DNA of 34,664 nt. Origin: Okeania sp. SIO2F4 (GTDB taxonomy: Bacteria; Cyanobacteriota; Cyanobacteriia; Cyanobacteriales; Microcoleaceae). The stretch covers positions 1 to 34,664 of the forward strand of contig NZ_JAAHGT010000027.1 of NCBI RefSeq assembly GCF_010672385.1, in the 5' to 3' direction. Positions 9,209-34,584 of this stretch are shown piece after piece. A program made the translations under genes and the position numbers. The stretch's first letter is position 1, and every line of letters begins with the position of its first letter. Below the pieces are notes generated by a model, which ran no database searches, had not been told where the DNA came from, and was given only the letters and a program-made list of their open reading frames with translations.

Positions 9209-9552
9209 GGGTTAATCCTCTTATTCTCAATTAGAAAATTGATTTTTTTCATTATCTGATTATTTAGTTACAGCAATTTTCATTATATTAGAATGCAATA
9301 GGGACATTCCATAGAACGTCCCTAAAAAAGTTGTATTTTTACTATCTGGTTGAGCTATCTAAAGTTTGACTAACTAAAACTTGCTGACAACCATATATTT
9401 TTCTACCTTGAAATTCTTGTTAATTATACTATATAAGAAGAGGACTTTAGTTGTCTGGCTTTAACGGCTACCTTGTTTTTATGCCCGCTCTAAAAGAGAT
9501 ATTACTCTTAATCCTTTTTCAGTAATTGTAATAATTATTTAATTTTCTGACA
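9209..9552. other. Divergent intergenic region
   Basis: The region lies between two divergently read genes, so promoters for both should be here, but I cannot fix -10/-35 boxes. A palindrome AGGGAC (9300-9305) and GTCCCT (9318-9323) with twelve bases between is visible; it has an A-run rather than a T-run on its right, so it is not a good terminator. Confidence 0.45.
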
Positions 9553-10134
9553 ATGAACGTAAACCCATCTAACCCTACAAACAGTTCCTCTTTGGCGATG
9601 CGCCTAAGAAATTTCATTATTGTTTTGGTAGCGATCGCTTTATCAGTAACCATTTTTATTGGACTACGAACTGAGACGGCCTCGGTTTCCCTAAATGAAA
9701 TGGCTGAAACTGCAACACCTCTAGATATAGCGTTAAGTAATGATAAACCAACTCTAGTTGAATTTTATGCTAATTGGTGTACGACTTGTCAAGCTATGGC
9801 TCCTGAGTTGGAGGAAATTAGACAACAATATGCTCAGAATACCAACTTTGTGATGTTAAATGTGGATAATAGTAAGTGGTTACCAGAATTGGTTAAATAC
9901 CGGGTAGATGGTATTCCCCACTTTGTGTTTTTAGATGGAGAGGGAACTGAAGTTGGCCAGACTATTGGAGAAGTGCCAAAGTCTGTCATGGCAGCAAATA
10001 TAGAAGCTTTAGTTGCTGGAAGTTCTTTACCATATAATGGTACAGTTGGTCAAGGTTCTGAATTTGATGCTCCTGTAGCACCGATTAAAGCAAGTCAAGC
10101 CGATCCTCGGGTTCATGGTAGTCAAGTACAATAA
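9553..10134 (+). CDS. txlA: Membrane-anchored thioredoxin-like protein (TxlA/HCF164 type)
   Basis: The 193-residue protein has one amino-terminal membrane helix (about residues 18-40, NFIIVLVAIALSVTIFIGL) and a thioredoxin fold with the redox pair in ANWCTTCQAM (Cys at about 77 and 80), the cis-proline region GIPHFVFLDGEG (about 121-132) and a following GxxP strand. The homologous plant protein HCF164 transfers reducing power across the thylakoid membrane for cytochrome b6f assembly, and TxlA is the cyanobacterial counterpart; this role is from the family. The carboxy-terminal 35 residues are polar and low in conservation. The ATG at 9553 is used since the helix follows at a normal distance. 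Single gene. Confidence 0.88.
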   Translation: MNVNPSNPTNSSSLAMRLRNFIIVLVAIALSVTIFIGLRTETASVSLNEMAETATPLDIALSNDKPTLVEFYANWCTTCQAMAPELEEIRQQYAQNTNFVMLNVDNSKWLPELVKYRVDGIPHFVFLDGEGTEVGQTIGEVPKSVMAANIEALVAGSSLPYNGTVGQGSEFDAPVAPIKASQADPRVHGSQVQ

Positions 10135-10678
10135 AAGTATACAAATATTTTTTCCCCTACTCCCTACTCCTTACAGACCTTAAATGCAACCTCCCTACTC
10201 CCTTAAAAATTAAAAATGTTAAATTAATCTTGTAAAGGTACTTAATTTATTGCGAGAGCAGGGGACAGGAAATACTTATTGAAAAGTAAAAATTTTTGAA
10301 TAAGTATTTCTTCAATACATGATAATTGAAAATAACTTATTATTCTTTAGCAATTCTATTTCAATTGTAATATTTTTGTGGTAGCTAAGAGTCAGAAGTC
10401 AGGAGTCATAATTTTCAAGTTTTTTAGTCAATCTTAACTATTATAAAAATTCTCACAAATCATTTAGGATTACTATTTATAAAAAAGTATATTATTCTGA
10501 GTTTGTATTAAATGCCTCACCATACTAACATCTACCTCCCATAAACCTAGTTTCTTGTAACACTTCTATTGCAGGCGGATTTGATATTACATAAATCTCG
10601 CCCATAGCTATTTCCTCAAGAATAAAACAACCACAAGCTTAAGAGGGAGGCTTTAAAAATTAATTTTTCGGAAAAATA
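10135..10678. other. Gene-free stretch before the histidine kinase
   Basis: No gene is supported with confidence. It holds pieces of the TCCCTACTCCCTACTCC and GTCAGAAGTCAGGAGTC families. On the minus strand 10605-10525 a 26-codon frame starts MGEIYVISNPPAIEVLQ behind GAGGAAATAGCT; it may be the stub of a lost small gene. Confidence 0.4.
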
Positions 10679-13171
10679 ATGAACTCTAAACAATTACAAA
10701 GGTTGTTAATCTTTTATTCTGCGGTAGGAATATTTACTATTAGTATATTGTTAGCAATAATAAGTATATTTCCGTTCTACAAAGAACTTAGAAAAAACGC
10801 AGAAAGTAATTTAAAATTAGGTTTACGAACTCGAACTTTAGCAGTAGAAGAATTTCTTTTAAGAACAAAGGATATTGCTGCACAAATTGCTAGTCGTACT
10901 CAAGCAAGACGAGAATTAGAATCTTATAACCGCAACCCAAACTATTCTGATGCTGCTGTTTCTAAAATGGCAGACTATCTGAAAGATGCTCTTAATCAAA
11001 CTGAAGATGTAGTTGGAATTAGTCGCTTTGGTCGAGATAATCAATTAGTGGTTGAACTTGGTTTACCCATCCCTCAAGAACATTGGCAATTGCCAATTAA
11101 AAAAGCAAAAATTAGCAATCCAATTCGCCTCAAAAATGAATCTTATCTCATTATTAGTCAACCAATTATTAACTCAAAAAAACAACAAGTAGGTACAGAT
11201 TTGGTTTTATTTAAAACCCAGAGTTTAGAAAAAATTGTCAGAAATAATACGGGGCTAGGTCAAAGTGGAGAAGTATTTTTAGGGACCTTAGAAAAACAAG
11301 AGATAAAATTATTTTTATCCTCCAAACATAAAAGGGAAAGTTTATCTGAATCAATTGCTAAAGTGTTGGAAAAAACAGTAGTTTATCAAGAAAATGGACT
11401 GATAGTTATCAAACCTAAATTTTGGAGTTATGGTCAAAAAGTTGCCTTTGAACCTGTATCACAAGTAAATTGGGGACTCGCGATCGCCATCGAACGTCAG
11501 GAATTGTATGCTCCAATTAATCGTCAGCTTATTACTATTGGAACTGTCATAATAGTCTTAAGCCTTTTATGTACCGGTGGAATGATTGTATTACTGCGTC
11601 GATTAGCCGGTCAAGTTATTATTCAAACTGATGAACTAGAACAACAACTGAAAGAAAAAAATCAGGCTTTACACGAATTAAATTATACTCAAAAACAACT
11701 ACTTGTAGAAATTCGGGAGCGCAAACAAAGCCAAACTAGACTGCAAAATCACAATAGAATATTAATAGAACTGGCTCAAAATAGAGCTGTAAATCAAGGA
11801 GATTTGTTAACAGCTATACAAGCAATTACCGAAGCTACAGCCAAAATATTAGAAGTTGAACGAGTGGGAATCTGGTTGTATGACGACTCGAAAAGTTATT
11901 TAAAATCTCTAGATTTGTACCAAAACAAACTCAATGAACATATTAGAGAAGTAAATCTTAACCTCAAGAATTATCCTAATTATTTGCAAGCGATTACTTC
12001 ACTAAAAGATAATATTATTACAGCTAATGATGCTCGCAACGATCCTAAAACCAAGGAATTTTTAGATAATTATCTCAAACCTTTAGATATTTTTTCTATG
12101 CTTGATGCTGGGATTTGGATCGGTGGAGAAATGGTGGGTCTTATTTGTATAGAAAAATGCAGTCAAATTAAAGATTGGACTATTGAAGATGAATTTTTTG
12201 TCCGTTCAATTGCTAACATAGTTTCTTTAGCGATTGAAGCTAGCGATCGCCAACTTACCGAGAGTGCTCTACGAGAATCAGAAGCTCAATTAAGAGCACA
12301 AAAACAAGAACTAGAGCAAACCTTAGAAGAACTGAAATGGACTCAAGCTCAGATGATTCAAAGTGAAAAAATGTCGAGCTTAGGTCAAATGGTTGCCGGA
12401 GTTGCCCATGAAATTAATAATCCAGTTAACTTTATTCATGGAAATGTTGTTTATGCAACAGATTATACTCAAGACTTGCTCAATTTACTTCAACTCTATC
12501 AAAATCATTATCCCTATCCCCATCCTGAAATTGAGAAAGAAATTGAAGCTATTGAATTAAATTTTCTCCAAGAAGATATTAAAAAAGTGCTCAAATCTAT
12601 GCAAATTGGAACAGAAAGAATTCTAGAGATTGTTAAATCACTACGAAATTTTTCCCGTCTGGATGAAGCAGAAATTAAAGAAGTCGATCTGCATGAAGGA
12701 ATAGATAGCACTTTAATGATTTTACAAAATCGCTTCAAAGCTAAACCAGGATTTTTTGGTATTGAAGTAATTAAAGAATATGGTCAACTGCCTCATATCA
12801 ACTGTTATGTAGGACAACTCAATCAACTATTTATGAATATTATTGGTAATGCAATTGATGCAATTGAAGATGCTCAATATTATGAAAAAAAACATTGTGA
12901 TGCTGGATATATTCGGATTAAAACTCAAGTAATAAAAGACAATAGGGTAGAAATTTTGATTGCTGACAATGGGGGAGGAATTAGTGAAAAAGTGAAGTCT
13001 AATTTATTTGACCCCTTCTTTACCACAAAACCTATTGGAAAAGGAACTGGATTAGGACTTTCGATTAGTTACCAAATTATTGTGGAAAAACATCAAGGAA
13101 AACTAGAATGTAATTCTCAGATCGGAAAAGGTACAGAATTTATAATTACGATTCCGATTAAGTTGAGTTAG
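10679..13171 (+). CDS. Membrane sensor histidine kinase (Cache-like, GAF, HisKA, HATPase)
   Basis: This 830-residue kinase has a first membrane helix at about residues 9-30, an extracytoplasmic sensor of about 250 residues of double-Cache type, a second helix at about 283-306, a coiled linker (EQQLKEKNQALHELN), a GAF domain at about 360-515, a second coiled linker, the phosphoacceptor helix MVAGVAHEINNPVNFIHGN with His577, and a HATPase domain with the N box QLFMNIIGNAIDAI (about 711-724), G1 IADNGGGI (about 761-768) and G2 GTGLGLSISYQI (about 787-798). The HisKA version with HEINNP is typical of cyanobacterial kinases. No response regulator is adjacent, so it is an orphan kinase; its signal and partner are unknown. 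ATG at 10679 follows an AAGAGGGAGGC site 35 bases away, rather distant, so the true translation signal is uncertain. Confidence 0.94.
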   Translation: MNSKQLQRLLIFYSAVGIFTISILLAIISIFPFYKELRKNAESNLKLGLRTRTLAVEEFLLRTKDIAAQIASRTQARRELESYNRNPNYSDAAVSKMADYLKDALNQTEDVVGISRFGRDNQLVVELGLPIPQEHWQLPIKKAKISNPIRLKNESYLIISQPIINSKKQQVGTDLVLFKTQSLEKIVRNNTGLGQSGEVFLGTLEKQEIKLFLSSKHKRESLSESIAKVLEKTVVYQENGLIVIKPKFWSYGQKVAFEPVSQVNWGLAIAIERQELYAPINRQLITIGTVIIVLSLLCTGGMIVLLRRLAGQVIIQTDELEQQLKEKNQALHELNYTQKQLLVEIRERKQSQTRLQNHNRILIELAQNRAVNQGDLLTAIQAITEATAKILEVERVGIWLYDDSKSYLKSLDLYQNKLNEHIREVNLNLKNYPNYLQAITSLKDNIITANDARNDPKTKEFLDNYLKPLDIFSMLDAGIWIGGEMVGLICIEKCSQIKDWTIEDEFFVRSIANIVSLAIEASDRQLTESALRESEAQLRAQKQELEQTLEELKWTQAQMIQSEKMSSLGQMVAGVAHEINNPVNFIHGNVVYATDYTQDLLNLLQLYQNHYPYPHPEIEKEIEAIELNFLQEDIKKVLKSMQIGTERILEIVKSLRNFSRLDEAEIKEVDLHEGIDSTLMILQNRFKAKPGFFGIEVIKEYGQLPHINCYVGQLNQLFMNIIGNAIDAIEDAQYYEKKHCDAGYIRIKTQVIKDNRVEILIADNGGGISEKVKSNLFDPFFTTKPIGKGTGLGLSISYQIIVEKHQGKLECNSQIGKGTEFIITIPIKLS

Positions 13172-13183
13172 ATAATTATTACA

Positions 13184-13216
13184 AATAGGGAATAGGGAAT
13201 AGGGAATAGGGAACAG
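13184..13216. repeat. Tandem heptamer repeat (AATAGGG)
   Basis: Four exact copies of AATAGGG stand in a row (13184-13211) followed by AACAG, between the converging ends of the kinase and the RES gene. A relative, GGGAACAGGGAACAGGG, is seen at 18178-18205. Confidence 0.85.
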
Positions 13217-14055: not shown

Positions 14056-14132
14056 ACCCACCTATTTCTATTGTTGTTTATTGATGACTAACAAGCATTA
14101 GTCATTAATAATCAATCATTAATCATTAATCA

Positions 14133-14612
14133 TTAGCTATATACTCCATACTCTATTTTATTCAAAAGTTCATCTACTTGTTGTGTGCCTGAATCTGTAT
14201 CTAATAGTTCTAAAGGAGTTTTTCCAGCTAAGGCACGGTTTGATTTTTTCAGCCAATCTCTTGCTGTTTCCACATTCTCAAATACATCTAATGTGTGTAC
14301 AAAAATTCTAGCAATACGATAAAGTCTATCTGACTCTGAAAGGTCAAGAGGTTTTTGATCTTTCTTACGCCTGGATATAGTCCGTTCGGAAGTTGCTAAT
14401 AAAGCTGCCATTTGTGACTCAGAAATACCACAATATTCTGCTACTTTAATTACAGAAATTATTGAAAATCCCTGACGAATTATACTGACTATTTGTAGTT
14501 CTTGGGGCAATTCCAAAACATTTTTCGGTATTCTGTCAAATCCTAAAATTTGATAGATTCTAGGGATGGGTTCAGTTTCTGAGTTCTGAGAAACTTGATC
14601 TGGGAATAGCAT
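14133..14612 (-). CDS. Xre/MbcA-ParS-type antitoxin of the RES toxin
   Basis: The 159-residue protein has the Xre-like amino-terminal helix-turn-helix (about residues 60-85, ISESQMAALLATSERTISRR) and the carboxy-terminal toxin-binding ParS/MbcA domain (SESDRLYRIARIFVHTLDVF, then ARDWLKKSNRALAGKTPLELLDTDSG, about 93-145), whose W and GxxPLELLDT words are diagnostic. Such proteins bind and neutralise RES toxins and repress their own promoter. It lies upstream of the RES gene on the same strand, in the usual order antitoxin first. The last residues NKIEYGVYS resemble the tail that plugs the toxin active site in characterised pairs; this is inferred. The ATG at 14612 is the first start after an upstream AT-rich promoter-like region. 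Confidence 0.9.
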   Translation of the reverse strand: MLFPDQVSQNSETEPIPRIYQILGFDRIPKNVLELPQELQIVSIIRQGFSIISVIKVAEYCGISESQMAALLATSERTISRRKKDQKPLDLSESDRLYRIARIFVHTLDVFENVETARDWLKKSNRALAGKTPLELLDTDSGTQQVDELLNKIEYGVYS

Positions 14613-15217
14613 CTGGACATCCTCTAACAGTCACCTGTCAAACATTATAACGTCAGATGTCTAAAAATGTGGAAATTTTATTTTAGAGCTGATTCATAAG
14701 CTAAATATTAAAGGAGCTTCTCCATGATCGTTGCGAGGGGGGAGTTAAAGAGGAATCATAAATGATTTACCCAATTATTACCCCTGTGGCAATATTTGGC
14801 ATAACAGTCAACTTCAACATTGTGTCGGCTGATAATATATTACAGAAGGTTAGCTTGTTAAATCGCTACCTTGCAATGACAATATCAGACTATATTTACA
14901 TCATCATTTTCTACATATTAGCTCTTAGAATAAATAGTTCAGGATATAATTTTTGGCAATCTAGAGACCAGAGCCAAAAAACAGCAGGATCAGGAAAATA
15001 AGAAAAAGTATAAAAATGAGGCCGTCAGAAACCATTTTCTTTGTTAGTAATAATTAGAATAATTGGGATGTCTAGAAAGTTAAGGAACTGTATTTACCGA
15101 AAAATAAAGGTATAAAGCCTCTCACTCGCTGTGGAGAAAAAAGTGCTCTTGAATTTCCTTATATTCAATCCTCTCGGTTAAAACCCGAGGTAATTATCAA
15201 TTATCCATTATCAATTA
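14613..15217. other. Mostly gene-free stretch
   Basis: The antitoxin promoter should lie in the first 100 bases, where repeats of ACATTATAACGTCAGATGT could be an operator, but this is not demonstrable. A 79-codon open frame at 14762-15001 (plus) has a weak AAGAGGAATC before it but no recognisable protein pattern. A CCTCTCGGTTAAAACCCGAGG hairpin-like word lies near 15171-15191, and ATTATCAATT direct repeats at 15194-15224. Confidence 0.4.
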
Positions 15218-15348
15218 TCAATTAATGAACCCATTTACCCCCATAAATAAAATCGCTTCAGATACTATTGTTCCACAACAAGCTAGAAAAAACACAATTT
15301 CTTCTTGTTGTTCTTTCGTGAATGAATCATTAAAATGATTGTGGCCAA
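15218..15348 (-). pseudogene. Carboxy-terminal fragment of an unknown protein
   Basis: On the minus strand one frame reads KIGHNHFNDSFTKEQQEEI, then VFFLACCGTIVSEAILF and ends GVNGFIN with a stop at 15220-15218. It has the look of a natural protein end (charged helix followed by hydrophobic helix) but has no start, and begins right behind the DUF427 relic. I do not recognise the family; a decayed gene is the likeliest reading. Confidence 0.45.
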
Positions 15349-16867: not shown

Positions 16868-17334
16868 TGTTAAATTCCTTGATTAACTCTATGCTTTAAC
16901 TATAGGAACTTTGATATTGAAATAGTGATAGATATATGCCACTATCATAATCACAACATCTTAGACATCAGGCGAATTCCATATTTTACTGCTAATATCG
17001 GAAAGCAGGATTATCCTAAAAGTAGACACTTCAAAAATTGGCACTGATACTATTACTCAAATAGTTGTCTGTGGCAGTGCGACTCAAACGGAAATTAAAT
17101 TGTAATTGGTATTATTAACTTCAGGAAGATAGCAACTCTTTCAGGATATTAAGGGAATTAGGCAGGAGTTATGGAATGAACAAAAAATCTTTATAAGCCT
17201 AATCAGATCGGAATTTGAGCAATTTTTTCCTGATTTGAGCAAAAAAAAATTTTAACTACCTAAAATCCTCTACAGTGTCTAACTCTGAGAGGATATCTTG
17301 ATAATTAAGAACAATTATTTTTGAGGTGTTAAAA
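16868..17334. other. Divergent intergenic region
   Basis: It separates the acidic protein (minus) from the secreted repeat protein (plus), so it should hold both promoters. Two close copies of ATTTGAGCAA followed by T- or A-runs (17213-17250) are the only obvious repeat. GAGG at 17323-17326 is the ribosome-binding site of the next gene. Confidence 0.45.
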
Positions 17335-18048
17335 ATGCTCAATATTAATAAGATTAAAACAAATATAGTAGCGATCGCCACAGTAGTTATAACTATTTGT
17401 AGCAGTCCCCTAGCACTTGCGGAAAACTACACCAGAGAATTTGACGAACAAGGATATCTACGTCAAAATCCTGATGTAGCAGAGTTAGTACGTCAAGGAA
17501 AATATCGCTCTGGTTACGAACATTATGTCAGATATGGGCAATATGAAAATCGTTCTGGTGCTTTTAAAACATTCAATGAACAAGAATATTTGCGACAAAA
17601 CCCTGATGTAGCAGATGCTGTACGTCGTGGTGAATTTAGGTCTGGTTACGATCATTATCTCAAAAATGGTCAATATGAAAACCGTTCTGGTGCTTCTAAC
17701 CCATCACAACCTCAAACTTATGATAATTATAATCAGCCTTCTTTTGGCAATAATAATTTGAGTTGTGAAGGTATAAATCGTAATTTATCCCAGGAAGCAT
17801 TTTTCCGAACAGAGAATCGAATTATCCACATTTGTCGATATCAAAATAGTAATGAATTAGTTTTGTTTGAACGTCGAAATAGAAATAATTCGGGTTGGAG
17901 AAATTTTCCTGTAGAAGTTGCTTATAATGGTTTTGTTAATCCTCGTCTGGGCTATTTTATTAATGATAATGAATTTATTCGCAGACGAGGAAATCAAATG
18001 CTTTACAGAGAACAAGTTGTGAATAAATGGAGACATAATTGCCGCTAA
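17335..18048 (+). CDS. Secreted protein with two 43-residue repeats
   Basis: The ATG at 17335 has GAGG eight bases before it and is preferred to the in-frame GTG at 17326; it gives 237 residues. A signal peptide is visible (VAIATVVITICSSPLALA, cleavage after ALA near residue 29). Two tandem repeats follow, about residues 33-75 and 76-118, each reading F-[D/N]-E-Q-x-YLRQNPDVA, then RSGY-x-HY and GQYENRSGA. The YLxxNPDVA word is found in secreted and calcium-binding-like bacterial proteins. The carboxy-terminal 110 residues contain two cysteines (SCEGIN, HNCR) and two CR pairs and are rich in Asn and Arg, probably a separate small domain with disulfides. Function unknown. Neighbours give no clue. 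Confidence 0.82.
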   Translation: MLNINKIKTNIVAIATVVITICSSPLALAENYTREFDEQGYLRQNPDVAELVRQGKYRSGYEHYVRYGQYENRSGAFKTFNEQEYLRQNPDVADAVRRGEFRSGYDHYLKNGQYENRSGASNPSQPQTYDNYNQPSFGNNNLSCEGINRNLSQEAFFRTENRIIHICRYQNSNELVLFERRNRNNSGWRNFPVEVAYNGFVNPRLGYFINDNEFIRRRGNQMLYREQVVNKWRHNCR

Positions 18049-18132: not shown

Positions 18133-18330
18133 AATACCAATTTCATAAAATATTGCTACAGTCATCACACAGGGAATAGGGAACAGGGAACAGGGAACAG
18201 GGGAATAAAAACATGATAAAAAAGATAAAAAAGGTTTTATATCTAGAATTCATGGAGTTTCTATTTTTTTATTGTAGGAATAAATCAAAACATCAGATGT
18301 AACTACCTTTTTTGAAAATGGTATAATTAA
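18133..18330. repeat. MITE-like element with 30-base copy elsewhere
   Basis: It begins with the 30 bases that occur inverted at 4546-4575, and ends with TTTTTTGAAAATGGTATAAT, an imperfect inverted match to the start (ATACCAATTTCATAAAA versus ATACCATTTTCAAAAAA). No coding capacity; a non-autonomous element is inferred. Confidence 0.5.
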
Positions 18331-18865: not shown

Positions 18866-20386
18866 TTACTTTTGTTTTGATTGTAATTTTTCCAAAGTTT
18901 GATGAGCGCCAGATAAATCAGGTTGAAGTTGAATTGCTTTTTCTAGGGAAGATATTGCTTGTTCATCTAAGCCTAAATTTGCCAAAGCTTCGCCCAAATG
19001 ATAATGTACAACCCCCGAATTTGGATGAAGTTCAATAGCTTGACGATAAGCATAAACAGCCTCATCCCATCTTTCTAAACTTGCTAAACTATACCCTAAT
19101 TTATGGTGCAAATCAGCAGCAGTGGGATTAAGACTTACTACTCGACGATAAGTAGAAATAGCCTCATCAATAAATCCTTGTTGTTCCATCATTTCTGCTA
19201 ATTTTAGATGAGACTCAATTACAGTTTTATTCTGTTCCTGTCTTCTCGCCAATGCCTCCTGTAGATGCTGATTAAATTTTTGATTATCTGGCTTAATTTC
19301 TACAGCTTTCTGATAACAATTTATCGCCTCTTCCCACTTTTGCATTTCTGTTAATGCTTCTCCTAACTGGTCATAAACCACTGCCGAATTTGGATTTATT
19401 TTGAGAACTTCACGATATTCAACCGCAGCTTCCTCCCACTGTTTTAGTTGGGCTAAAGCATAAGCTAATTGATGATGAATTATTGCAGAATTAGGATTAA
19501 ATTCAATTGCATTTTGATAGGCAGCAACCGCTTCCTCCCAACGTTGTAGTTGGGCTAAAGCTGCTCCTAAATGATGATAAACTTCTGCATTTTTGACATT
19601 TAGAGAGATAGCTTGCATACAGGCATCAATAGCTTCTTCCCAGTTTTGCAACTTGGTTAAAGCCAACCCAATGTAATAGTAAGCTTCTGCTAAATTTGGA
19701 TTTAACTCTAGAGCGCGATGGTAAGAAATAATTGCTTGTTCTATTTGACCAGCATTTTCTAGAACCTTAGCTAAACCTAAATGATATTCTGATAAATAGG
19801 GATTAATTCCAATAGCTTGATTGAAACTTTCTATTGCTTCATCCCACTGTTTTTGACTTGCTAATGCTTCACCTAAATATTGATAAGTTAAAATTGCATA
19901 GGGGTCTATTTCAATAGCGCGACGATAAGTAACTATCGCCTCATCAAATAATCCTTGTTTTGCCAAAGCTAACCCTAAACTCTGATAAAATTTGGGAAAC
20001 TCTGGATTAAGTTCAATAGTTTGACGTAGATAAATAACTGCCTCATCAAACCTCTCAAGTTTAATCAGAATTTCTCCTAAGTTATAGTAAGACCAGGGAT
20101 AATTTGTTTGTAGTTGAATTGCTTCGTGATAGATATTTGCTGCCTCCTCTAAATTTCCCTGTAAACTGAGAGTTTCTCCTAGGTTTTGATAAGCTACTGC
20201 TGATTTAGGATTAAGTTTAATTACTTGACGGTAAGCATCAGCAGCTTCGGGTAAGTTACCTTCCCTTAATAGTTTATTCCCAGTCTGAAGATAGTTAACG
20301 CTGGTTTCTGTTGCTGTTGTTGACATTGTTGTGTAAAATTTCCTTGATTTGGTATTGATAATTCGGGGATGAGCTATCTTGCTCAT
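18866..20386 (-). CDS. TPR protein with about 13 tetratricopeptide repeats
   Basis: The 506-residue protein consists almost wholly of 34-residue TPR units, from about residue 30 to 495, each with the pattern Y..LG.AL..L..W.EA...Y..AI.L.P. I count ten regular units, one irregular stretch (QEALARRQEQNKTVIESHLKL) where the register slips, and three further units. TPR arrays bind proteins and often serve as scaffolds; no catalytic domain is fused here. There is no signal peptide or membrane helix. The start is uncertain: the ATG at 20386 gives twenty extra basic residues, while the ATG at 20326 (MSTTATETSVNYLQTG) leads directly into the repeats. It is divergent from the glycan cluster; functional connection with it is possible but unproven. 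Confidence 0.92.
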   Translation of the reverse strand: MSKIAHPRIINTKSRKFYTTMSTTATETSVNYLQTGNKLLREGNLPEAADAYRQVIKLNPKSAVAYQNLGETLSLQGNLEEAANIYHEAIQLQTNYPWSYYNLGEILIKLERFDEAVIYLRQTIELNPEFPKFYQSLGLALAKQGLFDEAIVTYRRAIEIDPYAILTYQYLGEALASQKQWDEAIESFNQAIGINPYLSEYHLGLAKVLENAGQIEQAIISYHRALELNPNLAEAYYYIGLALTKLQNWEEAIDACMQAISLNVKNAEVYHHLGAALAQLQRWEEAVAAYQNAIEFNPNSAIIHHQLAYALAQLKQWEEAAVEYREVLKINPNSAVVYDQLGEALTEMQKWEEAINCYQKAVEIKPDNQKFNQHLQEALARRQEQNKTVIESHLKLAEMMEQQGFIDEAISTYRRVVSLNPTAADLHHKLGYSLASLERWDEAVYAYRQAIELHPNSGVVHYHLGEALANLGLDEQAISSLEKAIQLQPDLSGAHQTLEKLQSKQK

Positions 20387-21469: not shown

Positions 21470-24130
21470 ATGATGCAAAAAACAGAAAAATCAACTCTGA
21501 TAATTACCAGTATGCACCGTTCAGGAAGTTCCTTAACAGCTTCTATCCTCCAAAGTGCAGGTTTACATATAGGTCGAAAATTAATGGAGGGAACAGAGTA
21601 CAATACTAAAGGATATTTTGAAAATTTAGACTTCTATGAATTTCATCAACAAGTATTACAATCCCAAGGTATAGATGCAGATGGCTGGACTTTACAAGAA
21701 AAAATAGATATAGAAGAAAATTTTCAAGAAAAAGCTAAAAAAATTATCGCCAAAAACTCAATAAGTGGGAATTGGGGATGGAAAGAACCTCGGACAACTT
21801 TGTTCCTAGATTTTTGGGCAGAACTGCTACCAAATGCCAAATTTATATTAATTTATCGTTCTCCTTGGGAAGTAGTTAATTCTCTTTATGCTCGACAAGA
21901 TAAGATATTTCAAAGTCAACCAGAACTAGCAGTAAAATTATGGTTAAGCTACAACCAGAAAATTATTGATTTTTATAATTATGCCATTAATCGTTGCCTG
22001 TTAACAAATATTCAGACAATAATTAATAACCAAGAAGAATTTATTGAAACAATTAATCAAAAATTCAAGACAAACTTTAATAATCCGGCTGTAAATGTTT
22101 ACGACCCATCATTATTTAATAATCAAGTATCAACAGAAAGTCATAGACCTACTATCATAGATTATTACTTTCCTGAAGCTACAGAAATGTATCAGGAATT
22201 AGAGGCAAGAGCATGGAAACCAGAAGATGAAATACCAGATTTTTCATGGCAAGAAAAAATTAAATCATCTCCTTATAGAATTTGGGCATTTCAAGATTGG
22301 ATGAATTTATCTAGTCTAGAAAACCAAAATAAAATTCTACTAGCAGAAATAGAAAAATATAAAAATCAATACGAACAAAGTCAGTTAGAATTAACAGAAG
22401 TCAAGTCTCAGTTAATACAAACACGAGAAGAAACCCAGTGTCAACTGCAAAAAGTTGAACATATTCAAACTAAATTTGACCAAACAGAAAATGAATTAGC
22501 TACTGCTAAATCTCAGTTAAATCATACTCAAGCTGAACTAAGAGAATGCGAGTCAAAACTACAGCAGACAGAAAGTGAATTAAAAAAATCTCAAGAGACA
22601 GAAAAAGAATTCCTACAAACAAAATCTCAGCTACATGAAACTCAAGGAGAATTAGGGCAATATCAGTCACAACTGCATCAAACTCAAGAAGAATTAGAAC
22701 AATCTATATATAAACTCCAGGAAATAGAATTAGTATGGCAAAAATCTCAATCTCAGCTAGAAAAAACAGAAGAATTATTGGATGAATTAAACTCCCAAGA
22801 AAAACAAAATCAAGCAGAATTAGGAAAAACAAAACATAATTTGTCCGAGACTGAAGCAGCATTAAAAGTTTCTCAGTATAAGCTACATCAAACTCAAGAA
22901 TATTGGGAAGATTCCCAATCACAATTAGCAGAAAAAGAGGCAAGATTAGAAAAATATCAGCAAGATTTAAAAGATGTAGAAACGGCATTAGAAGATACCC
23001 ATTCAAAACTTCAAAAAACTCAGGCAGAATTAGGAGTAACAAAACAGAATTTGTCTGAAAGCAGAGGCGAATTACTAGGTTATAAATATCAACTACACCA
23101 AACTCAGGAAGAGTGGGAAAAATCTCAGTCTCAGTTAACAGCAACTGAGGCACTTTTGCAAGAATATCAGTCACAGCTACAGGACACAAAGTCTGTCTTG
23201 GCACAATCTAATTCTCAGCTAAAACAGATCGAAGAAAAAGAACAGCAAACCCAATCTAGTTTAAAAGAAACTGAGGGAAGATTGCAGGAAAAAGAGGCAG
23301 AATTAACAGAATCTAAATCTAGATTAGAAAAGTTTGAATCTGAATTACAAAAAACTAGCCAAGAATTACAAAAAACTCAATCTCAACTCAATCAAACTCA
23401 AGCAGAATTAGGAGAATCTAATTCTCAACTCAACGAGTGGCAAAGATCAAAGTCTGAGTTGCATAAAAACAAACAAGCATTGAAGCGAGCACAACTACAA
23501 AACCAAGAACTTAAAACAGAATTAGTAGAGTCGAATTCACAACTTCAGCAGATAGAAATATTAATGCAACAATCCCACTCTCAATTACAACAAACAAAAG
23601 CTTTATTAACAGAGTTTCAAACTCAGTTACATCAAACTGATGAAGATCGGGAAAATATACAAATGCAACTACAGGAAACTCAGGCAGTATTGCAAGAAGT
23701 TCAGAGTCAATGGCGGAAAACAGAAGTATTATTGCAACAGTCTCAATCTCAACAACAAAATGCCAAGAAAGAATTAGTAGAAACTAAGTCGGAATTAGAA
23801 AAATTACAATATCAGCAAGCTATTTTGAGAAATTCAAAATCAGAAGCAGATGATCAAACAGAATATAAACTGTTAGTTTGGGAAGCATGGTATGCTTATC
23901 AAAACGAGAATTTAACTGAGATGCAAGAGCGCCTTCAGAAGTCTTTGAAATATACAGAAACTTCTCGGACAGAAATAGTAATAGATTGGTTAGATAGTTT
24001 TGCTAATTTCTCTCAGACAAAAGGTATAGAGTTTGATAGTGAAAAACTGACAAATTCTGAAGAATGGCAAAACTTGATGAAACGCGCGATGAGAATTAAA
24101 CAAAAAGTTTTGGTAGGTAGTGAGAAATAA
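21470..24130 (+). CDS. Sulfotransferase fused to a long coiled coil
   Basis: Residues about 8-270 form a PAPS-dependent sulfotransferase: the phosphosulfate loop in SMHRSGSSLTASIL (about 14-27), WGWKEPRTTLF (about 102-112) and the 3'-phosphate site LIYRSPWEVVNSLYAR (about 127-142, Arg130, Ser131). Such enzymes transfer sulfate to sugars. From about 281 to 795 the chain is a coiled coil built of 14-residue units such as SQLNHTQAELRECE, SKLQQTESELKKSQ, SQLHETQGELGQYQ and SQLHQTQEELEQSI, rich in Gln and Glu and without proline. The last 85 residues (EYKLLVWEAWYAYQN, then WLDSFANFSQTKGIEF) form a compact helical end domain I recognise only as recurring near cyanobacterial sugar enzymes. It is the first of five same-strand genes. 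A soluble sulfating enzyme on a rod is inferred. Confidence 0.9.
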   Translation: MMQKTEKSTLIITSMHRSGSSLTASILQSAGLHIGRKLMEGTEYNTKGYFENLDFYEFHQQVLQSQGIDADGWTLQEKIDIEENFQEKAKKIIAKNSISGNWGWKEPRTTLFLDFWAELLPNAKFILIYRSPWEVVNSLYARQDKIFQSQPELAVKLWLSYNQKIIDFYNYAINRCLLTNIQTIINNQEEFIETINQKFKTNFNNPAVNVYDPSLFNNQVSTESHRPTIIDYYFPEATEMYQELEARAWKPEDEIPDFSWQEKIKSSPYRIWAFQDWMNLSSLENQNKILLAEIEKYKNQYEQSQLELTEVKSQLIQTREETQCQLQKVEHIQTKFDQTENELATAKSQLNHTQAELRECESKLQQTESELKKSQETEKEFLQTKSQLHETQGELGQYQSQLHQTQEELEQSIYKLQEIELVWQKSQSQLEKTEELLDELNSQEKQNQAELGKTKHNLSETEAALKVSQYKLHQTQEYWEDSQSQLAEKEARLEKYQQDLKDVETALEDTHSKLQKTQAELGVTKQNLSESRGELLGYKYQLHQTQEEWEKSQSQLTATEALLQEYQSQLQDTKSVLAQSNSQLKQIEEKEQQTQSSLKETEGRLQEKEAELTESKSRLEKFESELQKTSQELQKTQSQLNQTQAELGESNSQLNEWQRSKSELHKNKQALKRAQLQNQELKTELVESNSQLQQIEILMQQSHSQLQQTKALLTEFQTQLHQTDEDRENIQMQLQETQAVLQEVQSQWRKTEVLLQQSQSQQQNAKKELVETKSELEKLQYQQAILRNSKSEADDQTEYKLLVWEAWYAYQNENLTEMQERLQKSLKYTETSRTEIVIDWLDSFANFSQTKGIEFDSEKLTNSEEWQNLMKRAMRIKQKVLVGSEK

Positions 24131-24250: not shown

Positions 24251-27200
24251 ATGGCAGCAACAATAGAAACAGAACTAGAAGAAGTTAAGGGTAAGTGGCA
24301 ACAAACTCAACAGGAGTTAGATAAAACTAAGTCCGAGTTGCATGATGTTAGAGAAGAGTTAGAGCGATCGCAATCTCAGTTAGACGAAGTATTGGGGGAG
24401 TTGGAGCAAACCCACTTTGAGTTACATCAACTCAAGGAAAAGGGGGAGCAACAGCAGTCGGAGTCAGATGGAGAAGTTAAGCAGGAGTTAGAGGAAACTA
24501 AGTCGAAGTTGCAGGAGACTGAGCAGTTGTTGGAGCAGTCGCAGTCGCAGTTAGGTGAGACGATGGGAGTGTTGGAAGAGTATCAGTCTCAAATGGAAAA
24601 GACGATGGCGACTTTGGAAGAGTCACAGGGGAAGTTGCAGGAGAAGCAGGAAGAGTTGGAGCAGGTTAAGACAGAGTTAGCACAGAAGCAGTCGGGGTCA
24701 GATGCAGAGTTGCAGAAAGAGTTGGAGGAAACTAAGTCTCAGTTACGGGAGACTGAGGAGTTGTTGGAGCAGTATCAGTCTCAGTTGGAAGAGACGATGG
24801 GAGTATTAGAGAAAGCTCAGTTGAAAGAGAAACAACAACATTCGGGGTCAGAGTCACAGTTACAGAAAGAGTTGGAGGAAACTAAAGCCCAGTTGCAGGA
24901 GGCTGAAAAGTTATCAGAGCAGTATCAGTTACAGTTAAGTGAGACCATGGAAGTGTTGGAGGAGTCTCATTCTCAACTTGGTAAAACAATGGGAGTATTG
25001 GAACAATCTCAATCACAATTGCAACAAAAACATCAAGAATTAGAAAATACAAAATCTCAGTTATTACAGACGAAAAAAGAACTAGAAAAAGTAAAAAATA
25101 TTCAACCTCAACCCTACCTAGAAAAGACTAAAAATCAGACAGTACCTCTTGATTCAATACCAGCAAAAGGAGCAATTACAGGACCGGAAATTGCGATTAT
25201 TAAAAAGTTTATTACTGAGGGTAATTTTATATTTGATGTTGGTGCAAGTATAGGAGAATGGACAGTCGAGGTATTACAGCATTGTTCAAATATTGAAGTA
25301 CACTTATTTGAACCCACTCCACATAAATATAGTATTTTAGGAGAAAAAATATCTCAGTATTTCCCTGAGACCAAAAAAATTACTAACTGTTTAGGAGTTT
25401 CTGAAATACCAGGAGTTAAAACTTTTTTTAGTTATAAAAGGCATCATTTACTAAGTACATTTAAAAGACGAATCCAAGTAGAAAAACAAGGTTGGTTGGA
25501 ACCTCCAGAAAAAATAGGAGTTTTGACGACTACTATTGATAGTTACTGCAAACAAGAAAGGATTAGAAGAATTAGCTTCCTTAAAGTGGATGTAGAAGGA
25601 GGTGAATTAGATGTTTTATTAGGAGCAAAACAAAGTTTACAGAGAGGAAAAATAGACTACATTCAATTTGAGTATGGTGGTACATATAAAGATGCTCAAA
25701 TAACTCTTAAGCAAGTATTTGATTATCTGCAAAAATATCGTTACTCAATCTTTAAAGTTTTACAAGACAGACTAGAATATAAACCAGAGTTTGTTCCTAG
25801 TGATGAAAACTATCAATATAGTAATTACTTAGCAGTAAATGAACGTTTTCTGGATAATGTATTAGGTGAAAAACCGAGATTATTAGATGTACCTCAACTC
25901 TGCATTGAACACTCAATTAATCCTAAAGGTGTAATTCATGTAGGAGCACATGAAGGTCAAGAATTCAATTACTACCAAAAAATGGGAGTCAAAAATGTAT
26001 TATTTATTGAAGCTAATCCTGTTGTGTGTGAACGATTACAAACTAAGGTAGCATCTTATCCAAATGTCAAAACTGTCAATTGTGCAATTAGTAATGAAAA
26101 TGCGACGGTTGACCTCCATGTAACTTCTAATGAACAAAGTAGTTCAATTCTTCCTCTGAAAAAGCATCAAGAGGTTTATCCTCACATTAAAGAAACTCAT
26201 CAAGTTAAGGTAGAGTCTAAAAAATTAGACACATTATTGCAAGAACTAAAACTTAATCCTTCAGAGTACAACATACTAAACATTGATATCCAAGGTGCAG
26301 AATTATTGGCTTTGCAAGGTGCAACTAATTGGTTACGATATGTTGATGCAATTAATACGGAAGTTAATTATGAAGAACTTTATGAAGGATGTGTATTAAT
26401 TGATGAATTAGACGAGTTTCTAGACCAAAATGGTTTTCAAAGGGTAGCAACAAAAACTCCCCACCCATTTTGGGGAGATGCTTTTTATATCAAAAAGCCA
26501 TTGGTTACCATGTCGCTCCTAAGTAAAGCTCGCTTTGGGAATCAGATATTTTTATATACTCTCTTAAAAATTCATCAAAAAGAACATGATGTACGAGTAG
26601 AAACAGCACCCTGGGTAGGTCAATATTTATTCGGTCATAACGATCCACAAATTTCTCAAACTTTGCCTGAATTTACTGATTCTGGTATGGCAATCCTTAA
26701 TGCTAAAGAACCCTACAAAAATGTAGAATTTAGTGGTCCTGTTTATCAACTTCATACTAAATATTATGCTCCCTACAAAGACTTATTTCATTCCCTCTTT
26801 CAACCAGTGCCACAAGTAGAAGTCAGAATGAGGGATGCTGTAAATAAGTTACGAGAGCGTGGCAAAACTATTGTTGGCATACATTTACGACGTGGTGATT
26901 ACCAAAAACTTAAAAGAAGTTATACTTTTGTTGCTCCCACTGCTTCTTACAAAAAATGGCTAGAAGGTTTGTGGGAAACTTTGGACAAACCAATATTGTT
27001 TATTGCAAGTGATGACTTAGTAGGAGTCGTAAGTGATTTTGCTGATTATAATCCAATAACAATCAAAGATTTAGGTGTTCAACTGCCAGAGGCAGATTTT
27101 TATCCAGAGTTTTATGTTTTGACCCAATGTGATGTTTTAGCTATTTCTAACAGCACTTTTTCTTTTACCGCAGCAATGCTAAATGAAAAATGCAAGTTTT

Positions 27201-28015
27201 TCTTCCGTCCTCACTTACAAGCTAAAAAGTTAATTCCTTTCGACCCCTGGAATAGTGAACCTTTGTATCAGCATGGCTATGGAACTTGGGAAGAACCGAC
27301 TCAACAAAGCTATAGTCAATTCTCAACAGAGGTTTTAACTAAGTCTGAGAGCTCTATCCACAATTTTATCGGCCAATTTGTCAACAGAGGAGATTTAGTT
27401 TTTGATGTTGGGGCAAACCAAGGTTTGAAAACAGACTTATATTTAAGTATTGGTGCCAAAGTAATATGTTTTGAACCTCAACCACATTGCGTGGAAATTC
27501 TGAATCAAAAATATCAGAATCATCAAAATGTAGCGATTGTCAACAAAGGTTTAGCAGCAAAGTCAGGACAATTAGAGTTGTCAATATGCGATCGAGCAAA
27601 TGTGTTATCAACTTTTTCTGAACAATGGAAAACAGGTCGTTTTGCTAACCAAAAATGGGAGAAAAAAGTCACGGTAGAAGTGACAACTCTAGACGAAATG
27701 ATTCAAACTTGGGGTCTGCCACAGTTTTGTAAAATTGATGTAGAGGGTTTTGAGCATCAAGTATTACAAGGACTTTCACAACCTATACCTTATTTATCAT
27801 TTGAATTTACTATCGAGTTTATCGATAATGCGAAAAAAAGTATTCAACACTTAGTAAGTTTGGGATACAATCTGTTCAACTTTACTCAAGAAGACCAGTC
27901 AAAGCTAACAATATCAGAATGGGTGTCTGAAAGACAGCTTTTTGATTCTATAGAGTCTAAGTCTACTCATCAAAAATCATTATGGGGAAATATTTATGCA
28001 AAATATGATAGGTAA
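24251..28015 (+). CDS. Multidomain fusion: coiled coil, three FkbM methyltransferases, GT11
   Basis: The 1254-residue protein has: residues 1-295, coiled coil in 14-residue units (SQLGETMGVLEEYQ, SQMEKTMATLEESQ); about 315-535, FkbM methyltransferase 1 (FIFDVGASIGEW at 326-337, LFEPTPHKY, KVDVEGGELDVLLGA); about 550-750, methyltransferase 2 (VIHVGAHEGQE at 562, FIEANPVVC, NIDIQGAELLALQGA); about 754-1011, GT11 alpha-1,2-fucosyltransferase-like (KARFGNQIFLYTLLK, HLRRGDYQKLKRSY at 878); about 1035-1250, methyltransferase 3 (FDVGANQGLK at 1051, CFEPQPHCV, KIDVEGFEHQVL). All three SAM sites and the GDP-sugar motif look intact. FkbM enzymes O-methylate sugars; GT11 adds fucose. GGAAGTAAATTA precedes the ATG. 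The gene lies 120 bases behind the sulfotransferase, with the same type of coiled coil, suggesting the two products associate. Confidence 0.92.
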   Translation: MAATIETELEEVKGKWQQTQQELDKTKSELHDVREELERSQSQLDEVLGELEQTHFELHQLKEKGEQQQSESDGEVKQELEETKSKLQETEQLLEQSQSQLGETMGVLEEYQSQMEKTMATLEESQGKLQEKQEELEQVKTELAQKQSGSDAELQKELEETKSQLRETEELLEQYQSQLEETMGVLEKAQLKEKQQHSGSESQLQKELEETKAQLQEAEKLSEQYQLQLSETMEVLEESHSQLGKTMGVLEQSQSQLQQKHQELENTKSQLLQTKKELEKVKNIQPQPYLEKTKNQTVPLDSIPAKGAITGPEIAIIKKFITEGNFIFDVGASIGEWTVEVLQHCSNIEVHLFEPTPHKYSILGEKISQYFPETKKITNCLGVSEIPGVKTFFSYKRHHLLSTFKRRIQVEKQGWLEPPEKIGVLTTTIDSYCKQERIRRISFLKVDVEGGELDVLLGAKQSLQRGKIDYIQFEYGGTYKDAQITLKQVFDYLQKYRYSIFKVLQDRLEYKPEFVPSDENYQYSNYLAVNERFLDNVLGEKPRLLDVPQLCIEHSINPKGVIHVGAHEGQEFNYYQKMGVKNVLFIEANPVVCERLQTKVASYPNVKTVNCAISNENATVDLHVTSNEQSSSILPLKKHQEVYPHIKETHQVKVESKKLDTLLQELKLNPSEYNILNIDIQGAELLALQGATNWLRYVDAINTEVNYEELYEGCVLIDELDEFLDQNGFQRVATKTPHPFWGDAFYIKKPLVTMSLLSKARFGNQIFLYTLLKIHQKEHDVRVETAPWVGQYLFGHNDPQISQTLPEFTDSGMAILNAKEPYKNVEFSGPVYQLHTKYYAPYKDLFHSLFQPVPQVEVRMRDAVNKLRERGKTIVGIHLRRGDYQKLKRSYTFVAPTASYKKWLEGLWETLDKPILFIASDDLVGVVSDFADYNPITIKDLGVQLPEADFYPEFYVLTQCDVLAISNSTFSFTAAMLNEKCKFFFRPHLQAKKLIPFDPWNSEPLYQHGYGTWEEPTQQSYSQFSTEVLTKSESSIHNFIGQFVNRGDLVFDVGANQGLKTDLYLSIGAKVICFEPQPHCVEILNQKYQNHQNVAIVNKGLAAKSGQLELSICDRANVLSTFSEQWKTGRFANQKWEKKVTVEVTTLDEMIQTWGLPQFCKIDVEGFEHQVLQGLSQPIPYLSFEFTIEFIDNAKKSIQHLVSLGYNLFNFTQEDQSKLTISEWVSERQLFDSIESKSTHQKSLWGNIYAKYDR
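24451..24962 (+). repeat. Three internal copies of a ~129-base coding repeat
   Basis: Copies at about 24451-24579, 24684-24812 and 24832-24960 each encode a SG/SE-containing hinge, KELEETK or QELEETK, one 14-residue unit and SETMEVLE/GETMGVLE-like ends. Nucleotide likeness is high (for example GAGTTGGAGGAAACTAA in two copies), implying recent duplication. Confidence 0.75.
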
Positions 28016-31654: not shown

Positions 31655-33745
31655 CTATATTTTTGTCTGGAAAGTACGTTGAAAGTTAAACAATTTGTTG
31701 TTTAAAGTATTTGGGTAGATTTTCTGTAATTGAAACTCTAAATTATCGTTCCACTCCTTTGATAAAATATCTATCATAATTTTGTCATTGGCAAAACTGG
31801 CATTAGTTGTAACATTCATTTTTTCTAAGTCTGCTTCAGATATAAATAATGCTAAAAATTGAGGATTTACTGATTTTAGACTAAATCTCAATAGATGATG
31901 AATGGCAAAGGGTTGCTGTCTTTTTGAATCAAATTTATCTTGGGAAACTTCTACAGTTTCATCATTCATAAATATTAAAATAAATGATGCAGAATTAGAC
32001 TCATTGACTAACCTAAAACGAAACTTATTTCTGGCGATTGTTTCTACCTTAAAATTCTCAGGAATATGTAATAGATATTCATACAAATGAGTTGTTTCAT
32101 TTTTCTGGATATCATCAAATGTCACCACATAAGGAAAAGGTTTTTTGGCAAAGCATAAATGTCTAATCGCAAAGTTAACAGGGTTATAATTTTGTAAATT
32201 ATATGATGGAGTTGCATCTCCTGCTATATAGTCAAATATTTCTGAAGATTCCTGCTCAATAATTTTACCTGATACACCATTTCCTCCTCCTGAAAATCTC
32301 TCTCCTTTACCATCAATTAAAACAAGATTATGTCCTAGAGAAGATGAAGCAGAATTTTCTTTAGTGTCATTAGCAGCACCAGAATCAATAACTAGAGGTT
32401 CACCTTGAAATGTTAAAGTGAAAGAATTATTATCTGACTGGTCGTGAATACCAATAATATATTCCCCACAATTAAAAGTTACAACTGTTGCTTCAGATGA
32501 CCAAGCATCTCTGATATTTAAGTAACCAAGATCGGAACAAAAAAGGCGAGTCGGTAAACTAGATTTATTTAGTTCCAAAGGTGGAATTGATGACTGGGGA
32601 AAAAATAGATAGGCATCAAATAAAGAAGAAAAATTTAAACCTGGTTCCCTTCCATAACTTGCTAATCCTTTATTCCCTACTAATAACTCCCAGACATAAG
32701 TAACAAGACTAGGATTTCTCTGACCGCAAATTGTTAAATATCCCCACAAAGCTGGATGAGGATTCCAATAAGAATCATTCCAATTATTCAGATATTTTCC
32801 CCTAGGAAATAATTCATAAAAATACCATTCAACTAAACGATCTAATTTATCGCTATACTTGTCATCTAAAAATTCTCCATTGACTTTAATATTATTTTTT
32901 CGACATATCCGTAACAGTAATCCTAATATTTTAGAAACAAATCCACAATACCAAAGACCTTCCCTAGTCATACCTTGGTCGGTGATACCATCAATAAAAA
33001 AGTCTTCTACTCTACCCATAGCTACATCTAACCATTTTTGTGCCTCCGAAACATTATTCCGCAGACTAATAGCAGCGATCGCTAAACCGGAAAAAGCCAT
33101 AACTGTATGATTCCAAGCATTCCGTCCCCGTTCTTTTCTACCCCAAGGTTTAGTTAGTGATTCCTGCCAAAGTTTTCTGGCAATTTTTTCTATAAATTCT
33201 ACAATTAATTTATGTTCTTCAGCACTGAATAATTCTGGGGAAAAGTCTCGAAATAAAATAATAGCAGTTACCACAAAAGCTGTATGAATTTCTTCAGCAA
33301 ATACATTAGGATATTTCAGGTGATTAAGACTTATTTTTTTGACAATATTTTTAGCTAAATTAGCTGCTTCTAGATCGTCTGCTAATTTATAACCTAGCCA
33401 TAATTCTAACAGGACATTATGAACAACAAATATACTTCCTGAAGCTGGTGTTTTTAAAATAGATTCAGCTCCTAGCTTTTTAGCATATTCACAGTTGGCT
33501 TTAATTTGTTCATAAATTTTGTTGAAGGGATAAATACTGACTCGTTTTTTTAAGTCAACTATTTCTGCTTCCCTAAGGAGGAGAAATACTGAGTCTCTTT
33601 TTATTTTGCTATTTTCTTGTGTAGTCGTAGTCTCAGAATGTGATTCTTCCATCTCTAACTTAATCTGTTTTAGCCGAGACTGGTATTGTTCTATATTTAA
33701 CTTAATTTGTTTTAAGCGGGAAGGTTGCTTTTTGGGAATTGACAT
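31655..33745 (-). CDS. Heparinase II/III-like polysaccharide lyase with helical tag
   Basis: The 696-residue protein has an amino-terminal tag of two 14-residue helical units, SRLKQIKLNIEQYQ and SRLKQIKLEMEESH (residues 9-36), an alpha-toroid domain (about 70-400, with WNHTVMAFSGLAIAA and DQGMTREGLWYCGF), and a beta-sandwich domain (about 410-690, with LGYLNIRDAW, HDQSDNNSFTLTFQGEPLVI, DSGA and LGHNLVLIDGKG). The His-Asn and His-Asp words match heparinase II/III and alginate-lyase-type proteins, which cleave uronic-acid polysaccharides by elimination. No signal peptide is seen, so it would act inside the cell or be exported in an unusual way. It is the first gene of a minus operon with the methyltransferase at 30968. 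A trimming or turnover role for the cluster's polymer is inferred. Confidence 0.85.
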   Translation of the reverse strand: MSIPKKQPSRLKQIKLNIEQYQSRLKQIKLEMEESHSETTTTQENSKIKRDSVFLLLREAEIVDLKKRVSIYPFNKIYEQIKANCEYAKKLGAESILKTPASGSIFVVHNVLLELWLGYKLADDLEAANLAKNIVKKISLNHLKYPNVFAEEIHTAFVVTAIILFRDFSPELFSAEEHKLIVEFIEKIARKLWQESLTKPWGRKERGRNAWNHTVMAFSGLAIAAISLRNNVSEAQKWLDVAMGRVEDFFIDGITDQGMTREGLWYCGFVSKILGLLLRICRKNNIKVNGEFLDDKYSDKLDRLVEWYFYELFPRGKYLNNWNDSYWNPHPALWGYLTICGQRNPSLVTYVWELLVGNKGLASYGREPGLNFSSLFDAYLFFPQSSIPPLELNKSSLPTRLFCSDLGYLNIRDAWSSEATVVTFNCGEYIIGIHDQSDNNSFTLTFQGEPLVIDSGAANDTKENSASSSLGHNLVLIDGKGERFSGGGNGVSGKIIEQESSEIFDYIAGDATPSYNLQNYNPVNFAIRHLCFAKKPFPYVVTFDDIQKNETTHLYEYLLHIPENFKVETIARNKFRFRLVNESNSASFILIFMNDETVEVSQDKFDSKRQQPFAIHHLLRFSLKSVNPQFLALFISEADLEKMNVTTNASFANDKIMIDILSKEWNDNLEFQLQKIYPNTLNNKLFNFQRTFQTKI

Positions 33746-34483: not shown

Positions 34484-34515
34484 AATTAATAATTAATAAT
34501 TAATAATTAATAATT
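34484..34515. repeat. AATTAAT tandem run
   Basis: About four and a half copies of a seven-base AATTAAT unit in a row; a similar run lies at 18115-18134. Confidence 0.8.
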
Positions 34516-34584
34516 ACCTCTCCTTGAAAACGGAATTGATTGACTAATTATGAAAAATTTTTTCTTCTCTCTTGGGAGATTGGA

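Follow-up and report, generated by a model that had tools for sequence, protein, structure and literature searches.

The window is a 34,664-nucleotide stretch of DNA from the cyanobacterium Okeania sp. SIO2F4. A single open frame at positions 21470–24130 encodes a protein of 886 amino acids, which comprises three parts: a Sulfotransfer_3 head (residues 1–277), a heptad rod (residues 278–795) and a helical C-terminal domain, CT (residues ~796–877). The first-pass annotation had overlooked CT. A divergently oriented gene for a TPR-repeat protein lies upstream, and the gene directly downstream encodes an enzyme that opens with a coil similar to the rod (Table 1).

Table 1. Features of the sulfotransferase-coil locus.
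Feature	Positions	Strand	Evidence
Divergent TPR-repeat protein, conserved neighbour of the sulfotransferase-coil gene	18866..20386	-	
Sulfotransferase head, Sulfotransfer_3 (PF13469), residues 1–277	21470..22300	+	Pfam E 1.4e-6; conserved columns in 21-row alignment
Coiled-coil rod, residues 278–795, unit approximately SQSQLHQTQAELEQ	22301..23854	+	Periodicity, heptad model, dN/dS
CT helical domain, profile residues 796–877; window copy without Pfam match	23855..24127	+	Alignment, genome searches, domain partners, AlphaFold2
Next gene: N-terminal coil like the rod (~residues 1–286), FkbM methyltransferase domains (three stretches), GT11	24251..28015	+	

Sulfotransfer_3 is the only Pfam domain on the window protein. 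The match spans residues 11–141 and scores 29.2 bits, the cut-off being 27 (E 1.4e-6), which places the head in this family; a methyltransferase or kinase head of the kind found in WbdD proper was not detected by Pfam. In a 21-row alignment, S18, G19, P132 and W133 are invariant, and H16, S21, R130 and S138 are kept in at least 90% of the rows. The conserved segments SMHRSGSS and YRSPWEVV presumably fulfil the PAPS-site roles. By profile and conserved segments, the protein is a predicted PAPS-dependent sulfotransferase. Comparison of the head with PDB sequences yielded weak matches (best E 0.029), three of the five being protein-tyrosine sulfotransferase. Because the Sulfotransfer_3 match begins at residue 11, the enzyme is probably cytoplasmic and devoid of a signal peptide.

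Structure and variation of the rod

Proline is absent from the window protein beyond residue 268, and residues 281–795 are rich in Gln, Glu, Leu, Lys and Ser. Letter identity within the rod is highest at a lag of 14 residues (0.25, the top of lags 1–59); lags of 28, 42 and 56 give additional peaks. The hydrophobic power at a period of 3.5 residues is 43.2, whereas 1000 shuffled sequences average 2.2 and do not exceed 9.3. The first-pass annotation had described a proline-free segment at 281–795 with a 14-residue period and ~36 units, and these features are confirmed, the 515 residues corresponding to 36.8 lengths of 14. Its description of the units as showing little variation did not hold, because residues separated by one unit are identical in only ~25% of cases; Tandem Repeats Finder reported no array across the rod.

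The register was followed with a seven-state heptad model trained on the rods of this sulfotransferase-coil family, and its score is therefore not an independent measure. The model places register shifts near residue 320, where three positions are skipped, and near residues 332, 376, 656 and 783, where four are skipped. The longest shift-free stretch is ~280 residues (376–656). Core position a is hydrophobic in 92% of cases and occupied by Leu at 56 of 73 positions. Core position d is occupied by Thr or Ser at 45 of 73 positions, and the rod core is therefore half polar. When ten other rods were run through the model, eight exhibited shifts and two (L053 and L065) did not; the shifts mostly skip four positions in six of the ten, mostly three in L062, and are mixed in L064. 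The earlier claim of an uninterrupted ~500-residue coiled coil on a sulfotransferase, for which a heptad-register check had been suggested, is thus upheld for the coil, whose hydrophobic period stands out strongly from the shuffles, and fails for its continuity, the register being broken about five times.

AlphaFold2, run with the 21-row alignment, models rod helices at residues 269–322, 336–511, 532–593, 609–625 and 635–787, with non-helical gaps at 512–531, 594–608 and 626–634. The confidence of this model is low (mean pLDDT 58.5, rod blocks ~35–75). The register shifts and the low-confidence gaps do not bear out a straight, continuous rod of ~75 nm. Low confidence and gaps, together with the Gln/Ser/Thr-rich composition and the polar d positions, would also suit a disordered segment or a single helix in place of a coiled coil; however, the strong 3.5-residue hydrophobic period relative to shuffles and the prevalence of Leu at position a make this highly improbable. 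A long heptad coiled coil attached to a sulfotransferase is supported at the level of sequence, because the 3.5-residue period exceeds that of shuffled sequences, position a changes least and the rod dN/dS is below 1.

The head search gave matches in 78 of 98 genomes. Close relatives, which include Hydrocoleum, Okeania and Trichodesmium, have heads 84–90% identical to that of the window (74% in L016). The first-pass annotation had proposed counting repeats in related genomes. In the 11 close relatives that have CT and an intact frame, the rod between the conserved head and CT is shortest in L012 (Trichodesmium sp. MAG_R02), at 107 residues, and longest in L007 (Okeania sp. SIO2B3), at 701; at 0.149 nm per residue, this range would span ~16–104 nm. 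In 16 distant relatives with CT, whose heads are 59–65% identical, the rods comprise 258–523 residues, and only one of the 27 CT-bearing relatives has a rod shorter than 258 residues. A CT match was not found in the relatives L052 and L066. Proline is missing from the rods of 10 of the 11 close relatives; each of the 16 distant CT-bearing relatives has one to three in its rod. Rod length varies widely at 84–90% head identity, which makes a spacer of fixed length improbable and would require any ruler to change frequently.

Two possible artefacts were considered. Apparent gene splits in the Trichodesmium relatives L013 and L015 were rejected, as the frame breaks are X runs arising from N bases in the DNA; these N runs interrupt the rod sequence, and the two rods were left uncounted for this reason. 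Assembly collapse as a source of the length variation is partly answered by two single-contig genomes, G015 and G020, whose rods measure 472 and 350 residues although their heads are similar (dN 0.022); the window's own rod was read from a draft assembly of 1512 contigs.

Rod dN/dS is 0.20–0.70 and lies below 1 in all 12 close pairs, which were hand-picked and have genomes in common; the values for head and CT are usually lower. The CT value of the L051/L053 pair (dN 0.565) reflects misalignment and was ignored, and CT of the L009/L010 pair shows no synonymous change. Position a shows the fewest amino acid changes (0.056, compared with 0.098–0.173 at the other heptad positions), although part of this conservation may stem from the labelling of Leu positions as a. 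From these substitution patterns, the rod is under purifying selection. Indels were collected from rod pairs aligned at >68% identity. Of 197 indels, taken from non-independent pairs, 161 have lengths of 0, 3 or 4 modulo 7 (93, 43 and 25, respectively); the remainder comprises 24 of length 2 modulo 7, many of which represent one boundary difference, and 12 of length 1, 5 or 6. Recombination between repeats may by itself give such lengths. Neutral expansion of the 42-bp repeat, in which the rod grows and shrinks and need only stay helical, would account for both the great length variation and the repeat-unit indels. Nonetheless, the dN/dS range, the protection of position a and the recurrence of register shifts of mostly one size in 6 of 10 other rods render it very unlikely.

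CT and the neighbouring genes

CT was modelled by AlphaFold2 as a small helical bundle with a mean pLDDT of 84. The window copy has no Pfam match, and 16 copies gave only weak, scattered matches (best E 0.043). Foldseek with the CT model found no match with E below 0.9, and hence no significant PDB match. A second structure comparison gave Z scores up to 7.9 against scattered helical bundles, which may reflect merely a common arrangement. The last CT helix has a hydrophobic moment of 0.61, equalled or exceeded in 0.9% of shuffles, and was one of six segments tried.

The CT profile matches nine copies in the genome of the window and occurs in 40 of the 59 genomes searched. Ten CT proteins outside the window type were scanned with Pfam. 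Seven of them contain GT2 (two from L118 and one each from L114, L115, L123, L065 and L113), and three of these seven also contain a group-1/GT4-type domain. L120 consists of an FkbM methyltransferase, a coil and CT, L121 of Methyltransf_11, a coil and CT, and L119 gave no Pfam match. Among four further CT proteins, L147 is a Methyltransf_23-coil-CT protein, L122 has only a weak coil match, and L148 and L146 are unmatched by Pfam; by eye, L122 and L146 appear to be methyltransferase-headed and L149 headless. The Pfam scans thus show one coil and CT chassis that bears different transferase heads, with CT also present on glycosyltransferases. CT is a putative docking domain and, as an unannotated domain, may assemble glycan enzymes.

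Downstream sequence is available for 12 close loci, the window included, and in nine of them the gene directly 3' of the sulfotransferase gene opens with a coil like the rod. In L004 and L006 a coil gene is among the next genes, and in L012 there is none. The enzyme behind this coil varies: FkbM with GT11 in the window, FkbM/GT11-like in L008, Methyltransf_24 in L005, GT2-like in L015, and GT61 with or without Methyltransf_24 in L007, L010, L013 and L016. The similarity of the coils suggests that the downstream coil-headed enzyme may form a second arm of the same rod, and its product in the window is a candidate rod partner. Upstream, the divergent TPR gene (80–85% identical) occurs in 9 of 13 close loci, which are all those with enough upstream sequence; the other four end within ~650 bp upstream. 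In 13 of 18 distant loci a TPR gene of 35–38% identity lies within a few genes, although TPR repeats match one another easily. The TPR protein of the window is a possible scaffold.

The weak SMC- and HmpF-like scores of the coil raise the alternative that the protein forms an enzyme-headed filament with a structural or cytoskeletal role. These scores fall far under the curated cut-offs (SMC 65.1 vs 567.35 bits; HmpF 23.8 vs 200), and the neighbours and CT partners are glycan enzymes, such that a filament is barely conceivable.

Paralogs and their linkage to Wzt_C

For the linkage counts, 114 head-search hits were kept, and a hit was considered linked when it lay within 8 kb of a Wzt_C match. 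Excluded beforehand were the window itself, the partial copy G006:C1, a G020 row that is one half of a split frame, and 12 sulfotransferase hits of low significance (E above 1e-14), and three Wzt_C matches under the curated cut-off were left out. Among paralog sulfotransferases (34–51% identity to the head), 65 of 83 hits, and 65 of 72 genomes, have Wzt_C within 8 kb, where the Wzt_C-bearing gene is an ABC-transporter gene. By contrast, only 1 of 31 window-type relatives (at least 54% identity) is so placed, and this one (L066/G074) lacks CT; window-type genes as a group therefore do not share a cluster with Wzt. In four genomes the window-type gene and Wzt_C lie on one contig at a distance of 0.13–2.8 Mb, and several of the window-type contigs are short. 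Genomes with any Wzt_C have one to four copies, and chance is estimated to yield about one linked hit or fewer, given genomes of several Mb. The only Wzt_C found in the genome of the window sits on contig C926 together with a paralog.

The two paralogs scanned, L068 and L070, have the order sulfotransferase-coil-GT2-GT2-GT4. By a heuristic, 10 of 24 Wzt-linked sulfotransferases lack a coil, and seven of the 24 are only 272–376 residues long. A contig of a gammaproteobacterial (Wenzhouxiangellaceae) MAG, L018, encodes a sulfotransferase-GT2-GT2-GT4 order in one protein (8959–13197) with no coil evident by the heuristic, and no Wzt hit was found within the stretch of contig examined. A tree built from 57 heads has a branch (97/94) that separates the 31 window-type rows from the Wzt-linked rows. 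The tree is unrooted; if its root lies among the Wzt-linked rows, the window-type heads derive from them.

Of 26 proteins examined, 19 have a tail resembling SKFWKLR, defined by a loose pattern; all of these belong to the 24 Wzt-linked ones. A similar tail ends five coil-bearing neighbours (L140:8886–10451, L071:16814–18259, L072:15950–17512, L129:6800–8059 and L128:3828–5069), of which Pfam assigns L140 to a methyltransferase and L129 to GT2 and leaves L128 unmatched. A membrane helix is not claimed for this tail, which is not amphipathic by hydrophobic moment.

Comparison with chain terminators and proposed function

Although the first-pass statement that sulfotransferases do not need such rods may hold in general, glycan-capping enzymes of ABC-transporter pathways are described as bearing long coiled-coil rods, in the order terminator, coil, and then glycosyltransferase modules or a recruitment site (PMC11231755). 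The terminator at the far end of the coil caps the chains that reach it, so that coil length sets chain length (PMC11231755, PMC11127046, PMC3482155, PMC5082667), and Wzt, through a carbohydrate-binding domain, accepts capped chains alone (PMC11231755, PMC11127046). The coiled-coil terminators of ABC-transporter O-antigens include E. coli O9a WbdD and Klebsiella WbbB (O12) and ORF6 (O7) (PMC3482155, PMC5082667, PMC11231755); orthologs of the methyltransferase-kinase-coil protein of O7 are also mentioned for cyanobacteria (PMC11231755). In the literature cited here, coiled-coil rulers are established for a few proteobacterial O-antigens.

The window protein shares with WbdD, WbbB and ORF6 a transferase head carried distally on a long coil, which is a coil by its sequence and helical, at low confidence, in the AlphaFold2 model. 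At the C-terminus, these systems have a dock or fused glycosyltransferase modules; the candidate counterpart here is CT, which also occurs on glycosyltransferases, and the two scanned paralogs have fused glycosyltransferases in the published order of coiled-coil "molecular ruler" terminators. The paralogs also resemble those loci in lying beside a Wzt with a Wzt_C domain. The systems differ in their heads, which are methyltransferase, kinase or Kdo transferase in the published descriptions and sulfotransferase here, and in rod length, the WbdD coil being said to hold the heads ~20 nm away (PMC3482155, PMC5082667, PMC11231755) whereas the window rod has ~515 residues. In addition, window-type genes lie away from Wzt, and the window CT has no Pfam family.

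In the Aeromonas salmonicida wb cluster, a gene for a 216-residue sulfotransferase-domain protein is located between those of Wzt and the WbbB-type protein WbbB (PMC4483657). This order resembles the association seen here; however, the A. salmonicida sulfotransferase is a short separate protein for which the available text mentions no coil, in contrast to the rod-bearing window protein. The same text describes an O-antigen structure in which sulfate was not seen and proposes no function for the sulfotransferase (PMC4483657). NMR is noted to be capable of overlooking terminal groups (PMC11127046). Sulfotransferases within cyanobacterial glycan clusters also have a counterpart in xssA and xssE of the synechan exopolysaccharide cluster, which uses Wzx/Wzy; PF13469 and other cyanobacterial sulfotransferases are reported mostly in Wzx/Wzy- and ABC-type clusters and are abundant in Trichodesmium, and the terms "coiled" and "chain length" do not occur in the main text of that paper (PMC8205485). 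The layout of a catalytic domain, a coil of ~680 residues and a C-terminal targeting part recurs in the Rho-associated coiled-coil kinase (ROCK), which is discussed as a ruler in PMC5082667 and likened to WbdD in PMC3482155; ROCK is a eukaryotic kinase, and the likeness is one of layout only. A literature search, in which most subscription papers were beyond reach so that absence weighs little, found no sulfotransferase described as a coiled-coil glycan terminator.

Of the terminator layouts, the window protein matches the split one (head, coil, recruitment domain), with no Wzt of its own, and is therefore taken as a putative WbdD-type ruler. It would modify, and probably cap, a surface glycan while being held the rod's length from a glycosyltransferase complex; the chance that this reading is correct is placed just short of even. 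In this scheme the cytoplasmic sulfotransferase head would sit at the far end of the rod, and CT at the other end would dock on glycosyltransferases or a shared scaffold. Like that of WbdD/WbbB-type terminators, the head would reach only chains grown to approximately the length of the rod, which would thereby set glycan length, and surface sugar chains may receive sulfate at a defined distance from the site of their synthesis. In the coil-bearing Wzt-linked paralogs, the sulfotransferase would be the candidate terminator in the published module order. Capping and ruler function are putative, as are the cytoplasmic location, CT docking, sulfation at the non-reducing end, chain-length control and a parallel oligomer. 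Because Wzt linkage was not found for the window type, the protein is not classed among the terminators, and its capping activity stays putative.

The conserved ends, purifying selection, CT on glycosyltransferases, swapped heads, Wzt_C linkage of the paralogs and the A. salmonicida gene order count in favor of a ruler. The distance of window-type genes from Wzt_C, the coil-less fraction of Wzt-linked sulfotransferases (10 of 24), the half-polar core, the variable rods, the prolines in relatives' rods, the lack of a significant PDB match for CT, the A. salmonicida O-antigen without sulfate and the coil-less L018 count against it. The main rival is a tether that does not measure, in which the coil and CT gather the sulfotransferase, glycosyltransferases and the downstream coil-headed enzyme while rod length drifts by repeat recombination. 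The great differences in rod length at 84–90% head identity agree with such drift, as do the heptad-compatible indel lengths, which recombination alone may produce, and the varying enzymes behind the similar coil of the next gene. The tether is nonetheless somewhat doubtful, considering that nearly all relatives with CT keep a rod of at least 258 residues, that the rod is under purifying selection and that ruler function is described for terminators built in this way (PMC11231755).

A wider form of the ruler reading, considered rather unlikely, is that cyanobacterial surface glycans are terminated by a sulfate cap, which sulfotransferases on coiled-coil rulers would add, with swapped heads (sulfate, methyl) on the common coil and CT, rods of ~16–104 nm setting the glycan length of each strain, and the downstream enzyme as a second arm. 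If true, sulfate would join the known capping groups, and a sulfotransferase-headed ruler would be present in bloom-forming cyanobacteria. The natural rods of 107–701 residues between conserved ends would offer a direct test of whether rod length sets glycan length.

Several further features lie in the window. A 240-residue open reading frame at 17326–18048 contains an imperfect 132-bp tandem repeat (17446–17699, 1.9 copies), equal to 44 residues, and is unmatched in Pfam and NCBIfam at E 0.01. Short tandem arrays with a 7-bp unit are found at 4163–4239, 13184–13213, 14096–14135, 15192–15224, 18169–18202 and 34484–34516. A heparinase II/III-like protein is encoded on the minus strand at 31655–33745, near sulfotransferase and methyltransferase genes.
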